DNA of 44,081 bases from Candidatus Kuenenia stuttgartensis. Its GTDB lineage: Bacteria > Pseudomonadota > Alphaproteobacteria > SMXS01. How positions within the stretch are numbered: position 1 is the stretch's first letter; each line of letters opens with the position of its first letter. The stretch is taken from contig CALQFM020000031.1 of the NCBI GenBank assembly GCA_943329845.2, positions 1 to 44,081 on the forward strand. Direction: 5' to 3'. The translations under genes were made by a program, and so were the position numbers. Of this stretch, positions 30,559-43,192 are shown piece by piece. Below the pieces are notes generated by a model that saw nothing but the letters and a program-made list of their open reading frames with translations, did no database searches and was not told the DNA's origin.

Positions 30559-30604
30559 ATTATTTTGCGAATGAATCGCAAAATAATGTTGCAAGCGATT
30601 CTCA
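30559..30604. promoter_or_regulatory. Two tandem Fur-like operator sites
   Basis: Site 1 is a perfect inverted repeat ATTATTTTGCG-N7-CGCAAAATAAT (30559-30587) containing TGCGAATGAATCGCA. Site 2 is TGCAAGCGATTCTCA (30590-30604), whose right half equals the Fur half-site ATTCTCA and whose left half resembles TGCAAAT. Their centres are 24 nt apart. A weak promoter, TTGCAA (30589-30594) and TTACAT (30611-30616), overlaps site 2. The likeness to 7-1-7 Fur boxes is recognition by eye; no score was computed. Confidence 0.5.
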
Positions 30605-30621
30605 AGTGGGTTACATCTGTC

Positions 30622-30812
30622 TTCAGTTAAGAGACACTCGCAAGTTCCGGCTGGGTAGCGCTGGTGACGGAATTGACCCCCGAAAGGGATCTGCGCTCCC
30701 CGTCACCAGCGCCCCTACCGCCGGAGAGACAAATCGGAATCCCCGTGACGTCAGCCATGACGTCTCCTGAGCGAGCCCGCCGACTCCTCCCCGTGTCGGC
30801 GGGCTTATTCAT
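30622..30812 (+). ncRNA. Candidate structured small RNA ending in an intrinsic terminator
   Basis: Between the Fur-like sites and a strong terminator lie about 190 nt with three non-overlapping hairpins and no credible reading frame. Hairpin 1 (30647-30724) has an outer CCGGC/GCCGG, GGTA/TACC after a bulge, and a perfect 13-bp GCGCTGGTGACGG/CCGTCACCAGCGC stem enclosing CCC-cgaaa-GGG. Hairpin 2 is GACGTCA-gcca-TGACGTC (30747-30764), flanked by GGAGA/TCTCC. Hairpin 3 is the terminator with a C-rich loop (tcctcccc). The next gene has its own promoter after the terminator, so a free RNA is favoured over a leader. The 5' end is a guess. It matched no RNA family I could recall. Confidence 0.5.
30775..30812 (+). 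terminator. Intrinsic terminator of the small-RNA candidate
   Basis: A perfect 10-bp stem GCCCGCCGAC/GTCGGCGGGC encloses a 10-nt loop containing tcctcccc and is followed by ttattcattt. The stem is very stable; the T tract is short and interrupted. Confidence 0.75.
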
Positions 30813-30840
30813 TTGAAACTCCCCACCCCGCGGCTAGACT
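30813..30840 (+). promoter_or_regulatory. Putative sigma70 promoter of the TPP-enzyme gene
   Basis: TTGAAA (30813-30818) and TAGACT (30835-30840) are spaced by 16 nt directly after the terminator, predicting a short leader of about 20 nt before the ATG at 30869, with accgagggga as ribosome-binding site. Confidence 0.45.
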
Positions 30841-32543: not shown

Positions 32544-33893
32544 TTACCGCCCCGGCGGATTGCCGTCCAGGTAGTCGTGCAGCACCTCGTGGAAACGCCG
32601 CACCCGCGTCTCCTGCGCGGCCAGGTAAGGCTCCTGGTAGCCGCGCGAGCGCCAGCCGGCCTGCTGGCCTTCGGTCAGGCCCCAGTCCTGGAATACCACC
32701 GTGTCCTCCAGGTCCATGACGCCCTTGCCGCCGTCGTACTCGCGCAGTTCGAGCTCGGCTTCCTTGAATTCGTAGGGCTTCGACGCCGTCCGGTGGACGT
32801 ACTCGCCCTTGCCTTCGATCGGGTAGGCCATCATCCAGTAGTCGAAATAGCTCTTCTCCGGATCGCTCGGATGCGGCTCCCAGCGGAAGAACGACATCCC
32901 GTCCGACGATGCACCGAAGGCGACATTGGGGAACAGCACGCCGAACGGGCTTTCGGTCAGGTCCTCGTCGGACATGTTCTCGTATTGCAGGAAGCCCTTT
33001 TCCTTCCACAACTTGCGCTTGGCCGCCTTGAGGTCGAGCCAGCCCTGCATCGCCATGGTTTCGTAGTCCGGATACTGCTCCGGGTCGATGCCCCAGGAGC
33101 GCAGCGTGGCCTTGAAGGGATGCTCCTTGCCCTCCGGCACGCGGTCGCGCAGCGACGGGCGGCCCATCTGGATGATGCGCGCGTGGCCCGTGGGGAACAT
33201 CTCGTAGCGCGATGTGAAATGGTCCTGGTCGATCACCGCGGGCACCTGCGGATGCGCCGTGCGGGTGTGGTAGGACTCGCTGAAATTGTCGGACGCGAAC
33301 TTCCAGTTGCAGTTCAGCGCCACGCGGACCTGGCGGATGCGCACCAGCGTCTCGAATGGGTGGTTCCTGTATATCTCGGGCAGCGGCTCCAGGTATTTCA
33401 GCAGCGGCGGGGTCTGGTTGTCCATGGTGTACCAGACGAATCCGCCCCAGGTGTCGACGCGCACGTCGATCAGCCGGACCTTGCCGACGGGGTCGCCCTG
33501 CGGGAAGTCGTCGCGGTCGCAGGCGTCGATCAGGCTCCCGTCTGTGCTGAACACCCACCCGTGGTAGGGGCAGGTCCAGCTGTCCTGCGATCCGTTGGTA
33601 TGCACCAGCTTTTGGGCGCGGTGGCCGCAGGCGTTGTAGAAGCCCTTCAACGACCCATCGGGCTGGCGGGCGATGATGACGGACTCATGCATGAAGTTGT
33701 GGACGATGTAGTCGCCCGGGTCCGGCAGCTGGTTTTCGCGGCCGGCGATGTGCCAGACCCTGGTCCAGAGTTGATCCCATTCCTTCTCCATCCACGCGCG
33801 CGAGTAATAGCGCTCGGGCGTGATCGGGTCGCCGCGCAGGTTGCGCGGATCCTTGCCGTTCATCGCCATCGGATGGGTGATCGTCTCGGTCAT
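32544..33893 (-). CDS. Aromatic ring-hydroxylating dioxygenase, Rieske alpha subunit
   Basis: The 449-residue oxygenase has an N-terminal Rieske [2Fe-2S] domain with CGH (Cys89, His91) and CPYH (Cys108, His111), and a catalytic domain with the mononuclear-iron motif FSESYHTRTAH (His209, His214) preceded by SDN with the bridging Asp202. It hydroxylates an aromatic or related ring or a methyl/amine group with O2. No beta subunit, ferredoxin or reductase gene is near, so it is either alpha-only or uses redox partners encoded elsewhere. Start ATG at 33893. It is divergent from the MDR gene at 34146 across 252 nt. Confidence 0.95.
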   Translation of the reverse strand: MTETITHPMAMNGKDPRNLRGDPITPERYYSRAWMEKEWDQLWTRVWHIAGRENQLPDPGDYIVHNFMHESVIIARQPDGSLKGFYNACGHRAQKLVHTNGSQDSWTCPYHGWVFSTDGSLIDACDRDDFPQGDPVGKVRLIDVRVDTWGGFVWYTMDNQTPPLLKYLEPLPEIYRNHPFETLVRIRQVRVALNCNWKFASDNFSESYHTRTAHPQVPAVIDQDHFTSRYEMFPTGHARIIQMGRPSLRDRVPEGKEHPFKATLRSWGIDPEQYPDYETMAMQGWLDLKAAKRKLWKEKGFLQYENMSDEDLTESPFGVLFPNVAFGASSDGMSFFRWEPHPSDPEKSYFDYWMMAYPIEGKGEYVHRTASKPYEFKEAELELREYDGGKGVMDLEDTVVFQDWGLTEGQQAGWRSRGYQEPYLAAQETRVRRFHEVLHDYLDGNPPGR

Positions 33894-42558: not shown

Positions 42559-42572
42559 TTGACCCTGGTCAA
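42559..42572. promoter_or_regulatory. FNR/FixK-type box upstream of the universal stress gene
   Basis: TTGACCCTGGTCAA is a perfect palindrome fitting TTGAc-N4-gTCAA, the Crp/Fnr-family site of FNR, FixK and DNR. It overlaps the mlaC-like stop codon. A GATATT (-10-like, minus strand 42510-42515) would put the box near -61, a class I position. Confidence 0.5.
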
Positions 42573-43192
42573 TAACCGGGCTTGCTGCCCTGGGCCGCAG
42601 TCTTGCTGGCGATTGCAGCCATCAGGCCATCGAATCCCTGGGTCCGCAGCACGTTGGAGAATTCGGAGCGGCGCAGCGCCACCTCGCTGACGCGCCCGCC
42701 CAGGTAAAGATCCGACACTCGCCATGCGTCGCCGGTCTTGCGCATCACATAGTCGATCGGGATCGAAGGCTCCTGCGGAACCCGCACCTCGCTGTTGACG
42801 ATCACCGTGCCCGAGGGACCCGGGCGTTCGCCGGTCACCGCCAGCGTCTGTCCGATGAAGGACTTGAAGCGGCTGGCGTAGATGGCACAGAGATATTGTT
42901 TGAACTTGCCCACATAGATGGTGCGCTGCTCCTCGCTCCAGCTGTCCCAGACGCTGCGGCCAATGGCCATGGCGCTTTGCAACTTCACGTCCATCCGAGC
43001 CTCGAGCACCGGGCACAGCGCCTCGACACGCTTCTCGAACGGCTGGCCGCTGGTCTTTTTCATGATTCCGAGCATGCCGGTCTGCAGGTCGTCGACGACG
43101 GCCTGCGCCGAACCCGGGGGCGGCGAGGTCTGGGCATGGACTTCCGGAACAAACAGGGCCGCGATCAAAAGCGCGGCGAAAACGGATCTCAA
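42569..43192 (-). CDS. MlaC/toluene-tolerance (Ttg2D)-family periplasmic lipid-binding protein
   Basis: The mature protein shows the MlaC/Ttg2D pattern: about 200 residues, helical start (AQAVVDDLQTGMLGIMKKTSG), WDSWSEEQRTIYVGKFKQYLCAIYASRF (key part KFKQYL), VNSEVRVPQEPSIPIDYVMRKTGDAWRVSDLYLGG (key part IDYVMRKTGDAWRVSDLY). Family members carry phospholipids between the membranes. The start is a TTG at 43192: aggagg lies exactly 7 nt upstream and it gives a clean signal peptide (MRSVFAALLIAALF ... VHA). ATG-initiated longer versions from 43313 put cysteines and prolines before it. No mlaFEDB genes are adjacent. Confidence 0.87.
   Translation of the reverse strand: MRSVFAALLIAALFVPEVHAQTSPPPGSAQAVVDDLQTGMLGIMKKTSGQPFEKRVEALCPVLEARMDVKLQSAMAIGRSVWDSWSEEQRTIYVGKFKQYLCAIYASRFKSFIGQTLAVTGERPGPSGTVIVNSEVRVPQEPSIPIDYVMRKTGDAWRVSDLYLGGRVSEVALRRSEFSNVLRTQGFDGLMAAIASKTAAQGSKPGY

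Follow-up and report, generated by a model that had tools for sequence, protein, structure and literature searches.

The window analyzed here is a 44,081-nucleotide (nt) stretch of alphaproteobacterial DNA (Candidatus Kuenenia stuttgartensis, GTDB SMXS01; GenBank assembly GCA_943329845.2, contig CALQFM020000031.1, positions 1 to 44,081 of the forward strand). Behind a DUF3775 gene, it carries a locus that an earlier note, made from the letters alone, had described as a candidate small RNA (sRNA) gene controlled by the ferric uptake regulator (Fur). Our analysis indicates that this locus is very probably a real, structured sRNA gene headed by Fur-type boxes. Its parts, with positions in the window, are listed below (G numbers denote genomes; G007 belongs to a sister genus).

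30559–30587, no strand: Fur-type box 1, found in each of the seven same-genus copies and altered in G003, G005, and G006.
30589–30605, no strand: Fur-type box 2, lying over the −35 element, present in all seven copies with small changes.
30589–30617, plus strand: sigma70-like promoter TTGCAA-N17-TACATC, recognized by sequence and spacing conservation, with a predicted start at ~30624.
30624–30810, plus strand: sRNA gene of ~187 nt (fold z score of −5.8, covariation, presence in 6/6 other genus genomes, diverged G007 copy).
30646–30725, plus strand: long central hairpin made of an outer arm and a 13-bp stem (30658–30670/30700–30712), with 5 of 13 core pairs doubly changed among seven sequences.
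30740–30746, plus strand: C-rich segment A, UCCCCGU, invariant in 7/7 copies.
30747–30764, plus strand: hairpin 2, GACGUCA-GCCA-UGACGUC, nearly invariant, with 98% of cells paired.
30764–30772, plus strand: C-rich segment B, CUCCUGAGC, the probable target-pairing segment, invariant in 7/7 copies and complementary to the hemA start region.
30774–30810, plus strand: terminator hairpin with a conserved stem and one compensatory pair, its loop being C-rich segment C (UCCUCCCCGU), followed by a weak U-tract.
30813–30840, plus strand: promoter-like site TTGAAA-N16-TAGACT (9/12 match) of the downstream thiamine pyrophosphate (TPP)-enzyme gene, outside the RNA.

Direct reading of the sequence bore out the two Fur-like palindromes 24 nt apart described in the earlier note; they lie at 30559–30605. 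The core of box 1, TTGCGAATGAATCGCAA (30565–30581), lies within a perfect 12-bp inverted repeat with arms at 30559–30570 and 30576–30587, and it is the only place in the 3.68-Mb genome that matches TTGCGAATNANTCGCAA without a mismatch. Box 2 reads TTGCAAGCGATTCTCAA (30589–30605), 24 nt away from box 1 as measured from center to center. With up to three mismatches allowed, the Fur-type pattern yielded 15 + 22 matches in this genome versus 8 + 8 with the reversed control. Overlooked in the earlier note was a promoter inside box 2, which overlaps the −35 element (TTGCAA, 30589–30594) of TTGCAA-N17-TACATC (TACATC at 30612–30617). The spacing of this promoter is constant in the seven genus copies, with a −10 element changed to TACGAC in G006, and the equivalent promoter of G007, TTGCGT-N17-TAGAAC, has the same 17-nt spacer. 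Its position predicts an RNA start near 30624.

The region 30600–30815 folds with a minimum free energy of −97.4 kcal/mol, compared with −70.7 ± 4.6 for shuffled sequences (z = −5.8; 0/200 as low). All three hairpins announced by the earlier note were recovered (central hairpin, hairpin 2, and terminator hairpin), as was the exact 13-bp core stem pairing 30658–30670 with 30700–30712, plus outer pairing. Its claim of a strong intrinsic terminator holds for the hairpin, in which 30774–30784 pairs with 30795–30805, but not for the U-tract behind it, which is poor (CUUAUUCAUU); a generic terminator scan performed no better than chance (1 found versus 1.0 expected). The predicted transcript is a stand-alone, structured, noncoding RNA with its own terminator hairpin and a weak U-tract. 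Across the genus, little or no variation is seen in three C-rich stretches: UCCCCGU, CUCCUGAGC, and UCCUCCCCG, the loop of the terminator. These likely working parts were absent from the earlier note. The predicted mean unpaired probability of segment C is 0.65 to 0.87 across the seven genus copies, and that of segment A is 0.57 to 0.85 in G005, G001, G006, and G007.

A DNA search with the block matched 6/6 other genomes of the genus and 0/53 further genomes. Conservation is concentrated on the locus itself in G003, where identity to the window is 0.89 in the RNA, 0.78 in the boxes, and 0.16 in the upstream intergenic part; in G004, a near relative, identity of the upstream part is high as well (0.92). 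A search for an exact 19-nt stretch of the RNA gave four contigs, assigned to G001, G002, G004, and G006, in a collection of 84,980 species with a single genome per species, from which records of or near the genome of the window were possibly left out. The compensatory changes among homologs that had been set as a check on the sRNA proposal are present. In the seven-copy alignment, evaluated with RNAalifold and by a pair count on the same structure, 8 of 49 pairs changed on both sides (9 cells), while 98.0% of the cells remained paired. The covariation score was 0.129, as opposed to 0.065 ± 0.009 for shuffled alignments (0/500 as high), and controls with a slid structure gave 0 to 2 doubly changed pairs and scores of 0.020 to 0.053. 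Since the structure was derived from the same seven sequences, this test favors the structure. Furthermore, seven of the nine doubly changed cells, as read from the alignment, come from G006 and the other two from G001 and G005, which implies few independent events. The 3′ half of the RNA is nearly invariant and hence gives almost no covariation signal either way; for the same reason, covariation provides no evidence for hairpin 2.

When three genomes from this family were scanned with the box pattern, a further box pair, 23 nt apart, came to light in G007, where it sits behind the same DUF3775 gene as in the window. The boxes are followed by the promoter, a leader (CAGTTAATAACGATTCGCA), TCTCCCCG, ACTCCTGAA, and a terminator, in this order. 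The leader agrees with that of the window at 14 of 19 positions, and the G007 locus shows the leader motif CAGTTAAnA..ATTCGCA as well as TCCCCG and CTCCTGA. Position, boxes, promoter, and motifs in combination argue for homology of the G007 locus. As a side observation, neighborhood box pairs in a third genus, represented by G008 (L061/L085) and G009 (L060/L086), precede, in place of the RNA, a TonB-receptor-like or signal-peptide gene (by eye).

We then asked which start sites segment B could reach. In the genome of the window, GCTCAGGA placed 2 to 22 bases before an ATG gave 21 match rows versus 6 for the reversed pattern; the 21 rows correspond to 18 places, one of which is the reverse strand of the RNA itself. 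Gene starts carrying the segment B complement include those of sdhB, a Rieske oxygenase, a DUF433 gene, and hemA. The latter encodes 5-aminolevulinate synthase (TIGR01821, 674.8 bits), the enzyme of the first step of heme synthesis. The hemA site, GCTCAGGAG, offers 9 bases complementary to segment B and overlaps the ribosome-binding site. Five of the six genus genomes in which hemA was found retain this site (G000, G001, G002, G003, and G005), G003 despite diverged upstream sequence; the incomplete genome G004 yielded no hemA. The G007 RNA reads AACTCCTGAA, with the segment changed to AACUCCUGAA, and hemA reads TTCAGGAGTT, so that 10 bases are complementary, with one compensatory position (G-C to A-U) and a match lengthened on the other side. 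Predicted RNA-hemA duplex energies are −20.4 in the genus (−21.2 in G003 and −15.9 in G006) and −15.0 for the G007 pair. With the partners swapped, the G007 segment reaches −12.9 on hemA of G000 to G003 and G005, and the segment of the genus reaches −17.0 on that of G007. An 8-nt site at sdhB is present in five of the six genus genomes in which sdhB was found.

Target specificity was further assessed on a sample of 766 called genes (~840 kb, consisting of the window and 40 other stretches), five of which show a pairing with segment B as good as that of hemA. With a match-length cutoff fixed before the gene list was seen, 12 of the 766 genes showed an exact match of at least 8 nt to the complement of an invariant 17-mer spanning segment B. 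Half of these 12 belong to iron families as defined by Pfam, in contrast to 2 of 60 randomly drawn other genes (Fisher's P = 1.4e-4); a wider count of iron-related families gave 7/12 versus 4/60. The six are two Rieske oxygenases, SdhB, an A-type Fe-S carrier, a radical-SAM protein, and the alpha chain of a 2-oxoacid:acceptor oxidoreductase, which has a ferredoxin partner and a cluster of its own that is only putative. An energy-based test on the first 400 genes also favored the iron class (P = 2.4e-4; 0/100 shuffled segment sets as good), while a generic anti-Shine-Dalgarno string gave P = 0.09; this test was run after the top list had been seen, and 2 of the 20 class members do not belong there, one being the TPP enzyme and the other, by eye, an alcohol dehydrogenase. 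Aside from these tests, several Rieske and P450 genes in the sampled stretches have GGGGAG-like start sites, and strong GGGGAGGAG start sites number seven in the genome, one at a P450 gene and most at other genes (by eye). Exact matches of 9 and 11 nt to the surroundings of segment B also occur near the starts of the genes for MlaC (window 42572–43192, minus strand) and DUF433 (L170:7897–8118, plus strand), respectively, which may be non-iron targets or chance matches.

Taken as a whole, this evidence points to a Fur-repressed, trans-acting, iron-sparing sRNA that would act on hemA and other start sites, a reading to which we assign a probability of about 0.65. When iron is present, iron-loaded Fur on both boxes would block RNA polymerase; when it is scarce, the RNA would be transcribed, and segment B (CUCCUGAGC), perhaps together with the C-rich loop of the terminator, would pair over the ribosome-binding sites of target mRNAs and stop their translation. 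Among the targets, hemA would be the best supported, with sdhB and genes of other Fe-S or Rieske proteins as further candidates, and the net effect would be to spare iron. We put forward only tentatively, with rather less than even confidence, the stronger proposition that this is the first directly Fur-boxed alphaproteobacterial sRNA with an identifiable working site, in which a nine-base segment would shut off both hemA and succinate dehydrogenase and would have co-changed with hemA across two genera.

Several results weigh against this interpretation. Besides the poor U-tract, segment B itself is predicted to be only about half unpaired (0.26 to 0.57). The genus model ranks the G007 copy best of 16.9 kb, yet at only 12.1 bits and an E value of 0.013, and the fold of the strand is only moderately stable relative to shuffles (z = −2.4; 4/200 as low). 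As for hemA, the site in G006 has one mismatch (GCTCTGGAG), and it is missing from the second hemA-like copies of G001 and G007. The best predicted G007 duplex uses nine of the ten bases and skips the compensatory A-U in favor of a C-G past a small loop, and G007 hemA is bound better by the genus segment (−17.0) than by its own (−15.0), which makes the case for co-change suggestive, not strong. The sdhB site is altered in G005 and absent from G007. The enrichment is partly post hoc because several names (the two Rieske genes, sdhB, and a CxxCxxCC gene) were known beforehand and the family list was written afterwards. A preregistered energy test with the three segments on the 366 other genes failed (P = 0.31), with 9 of the 366 genes in the iron class and 35% of shuffled segment sets performing as well; a P value of 0.009 for the held-out P450 and Rieske subset (four genes) was discounted. 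In view of the failed held-out test and the partly post hoc enrichment, we regard hemA as a likely target of the RNA and sdhB as a plausible one, both by complementarity, and the members of the wider set as candidates.

These same results bear on a different account, in which Fur would still control the RNA but its C-rich loops would mainly titrate a protein or another RNA, or would serve as an unspecific anti-Shine-Dalgarno decoy at many start sites, without iron proteins being singled out. The presence of three C-rich segments, the subthreshold scores for the C-rich-loop RNAs ar14 and sX13 (see below), the failure of the broad target test on held-out genes, and the matches at non-iron genes (DUF433, MlaC, and, by eye, reductases) are all compatible with it. 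Against it stand the match of segment B to the hemA start in two genera and the share of iron families among the exact-match genes (6 of 12 versus 2 of 60 others). We consider it unlikely, if worth keeping in mind.

Whether the boxes are truly Fur sites was addressed by inspecting similar sites elsewhere in the genome. There are 31 distinct box-like places, two of them being those of the RNA; the flanks of 12 of the 29 others, chosen partly by likeness to box 1, were inspected. Of these 12, six adjoin iron or citric acid cycle genes, as follows; the other six are unremarkable.

C3:27504–27520 (L024): box-like site at an Rrf2 regulator gene with sufB.
C3:19389: box-like site at a bacterioferritin gene.
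C25:30735: box-like site at sucC.
C25:36771–36787 (L038): box-like site upstream of the sdhC-D-A operon (sdhC by eye).
C33:36890: box-like site at a TonB receptor gene.
C42:2290: box-like site at feoB.

Five of these six flank plain iron genes, sucC being the exception, and all sites elsewhere in the genome are weaker matches than box 1. The genome encodes four Fur-family proteins, the best of which (131.5 bits) is nearest to the ferric uptake regulator, albeit as a partial sequence below the cutoff. Similar sites at iron genes and a Fur protein in the genome make Fur the probable ligand of the boxes, an identity read from sequence likeness. Binding by another member of the family or another iron regulator (Mur, Irr, or Zur), with the RNA answering a different metal or heme, would fit the presence of four such proteins and the sequence-based nature of the assignment, but it is improbable given that the flanked genes form an iron set (feoB, TonB receptor, suf, bacterioferritin, and sdh). 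The sdh and suf boxes further suggest that Fur or a relative may directly control iron-using genes, in addition to the RNA; direct gene activation by Fur is reported for Caulobacter in extracts of PMC11005374. Under the stronger, tentative proposition above, the sRNA and the repressor would jointly act on the same operon.

The gene neighborhood speaks to the alternative already raised in the earlier note, namely, that the RNA is a 5′ leader, attenuator, or riboswitch of the TPP-enzyme gene. In every genus genome except G006, this gene does appear, by eye, to come next on the same strand. In G006, however, an opposite-strand gene intervenes between the two, and the gene downstream of the RNA in G007 is a convergent TonB-receptor-like gene (by eye); in neither genome does the RNA lie directly upstream of the TPP-enzyme gene, and the gene order contradicts the leader proposal. 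Upstream, a symporter gene adjoins the RNA in G005 and G006 (by eye), and the varying neighbors in G005, G006, and G007 mark the RNA as a unit of its own. Moreover, the terminator and a second promoter separate it from the TPP-enzyme gene, for which the TTGAAA-N16-TAGACT promoter described earlier was indeed present, and no Rfam riboswitch match was obtained. A leader function is accordingly very improbable. Two observations on the neighborhood are added here: the intervening G006 gene (L008, ~940–1457, opposite strand) is small and secreted-protein-like (by eye), and a gene for a Rieske ring-hydroxylating oxygenase alpha subunit adjoins the TPP-enzyme gene in the window (32544–33893, minus strand).

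In agreement with the earlier note, which saw no credible reading frame, no frame is common to the seven same-genus copies, in which the longest closed forward frame ranges from 0 to 47 amino acids per genome. On the reverse strand, frames of 41 to 61 amino acids are open in three of the seven copies (window, G004, and G002), nearly identical over the first ~25 residues; they span the invariant 3′ half and diverge after it. A dual-function RNA or short-peptide leader is hardly credible, because the longest forward frames of 28 to 47 amino acids in five copies (those of G001 and G005 beginning alike) and the three like-starting reverse frames are offset by the lack of a frame or start common to all seven, by a window in which none is open forward, and by sequence changes that follow the pairing.

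Wider searches delimited the family of this putative Fur-repressed sRNA. Neither the window nor its six relatives matched any of the 4227 families of Rfam 15 at gathering score, and a plasmid collection contained no match to the RNA block. A covariance model (R1) detected 7 of 10 genomes of the order, all of one genus, and missed G007. In 386 genomes of the class it detected 10 at an E value of ≤0.05, four of them from the same genus; the six others (E values of 4.8e-4 to 0.04; loci L017 to L022) were rejected as partial or terminator-only matches by eye. With its strict filters and the small number of candidates scored in each genome, this class-wide search may have lost distant copies. The DUF3775 gene occurs in 55 of 288 genomes of the class. 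Among 28 scored loci (of 30, excluding those of the window's genome and G005; two were without a frame), box pairs lie behind the gene in G003 and G007, and 24 other loci have none within 350 bases behind it (best box score, 9 to 12 of 17). The family is therefore narrow in the searched genomes (one genus and one sister-genus genome), which fits a repeated origin of such RNAs. Independently of this family, hairpins with TCCTCCCC or ACCTCCCC loops were seen in other alphaproteobacteria at L022 (G196, ~1480–1560) and L019 (G346, ~1600–1650), and these may belong to other C-rich-loop sRNAs.

Control by Fur-repressed, iron-sparing RNAs is familiar in other bacteria and so far not clearly demonstrated in alphaproteobacteria; if our interpretation is true, the Fur-boxed arrangement does exist in another lineage of this class. 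The locus and its nine-base target site are defined and testable, and they predict that an RNA directly connects iron starvation with heme synthesis.

Of the bacterial sRNA families in Rfam, ar14 (RF02344) scored best, although well below threshold (22.7 bits, E value of 0.025 over 371 bases, versus a gathering score of 58.8), which speaks against membership; sX13 was likewise subthreshold (17.5 bits versus 50). Both are C-rich-loop RNAs, and ar14 is not known to be under Fur control. A Fur-boxed sRNA of alphaproteobacteria was not among the open-licence literature matches listed, as judged from titles and the starts of abstracts, which is not proof of absence. Our comparison within the class rests on extracts of PMC11005374, PMC3751524, PMC6120978, and PMC9549626. 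According to these extracts, RusT of Caulobacter (PMC11005374) is, like our RNA, an intergenic, alphaproteobacterial sRNA kept in relatives (Caulobacteraceae), and it is induced by iron starvation; it differs in being controlled by NtrYX, with no Fur site identified in that text. By description, two further Caulobacter cases resemble the RNA studied here. R0117 is a 1-kb RNA that increases under iron limitation and in a fur mutant, and according to the same extract (PMC6120978), no conserved Fur box was found ahead of the iron-responsive sRNAs covered there. The CC0681-CC0682 region is a Fur-repressed operon to which PMC3751524 ascribes two putative sRNAs, without confirming them as distinct transcripts; the same paper suggests an iron-responsive sRNA in Caulobacter that it does not identify.

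Outside the class, IsrR of Staphylococcus (PMC9410917) is spread throughout one genus, as is our RNA; as compared by description, it belongs to another phylum, whereas our RNA has no Rfam match and hemA as a proposed target. RyhB, PrrF, NrrF, FsrA, HrrF, and BrrF are, in the portions of the literature covered, Fur-repressed sRNAs that lower iron-using proteins, as we propose here, and succinate dehydrogenase is given there as an NrrF target. The C-rich segments and the long central hairpin set our RNA apart from the RyhB-type sRNAs by description. Succinate dehydrogenase is reportedly a target of RyhB and PrrF as well. Overall, the RNA most likely represents a previously unseen family within an established functional type.
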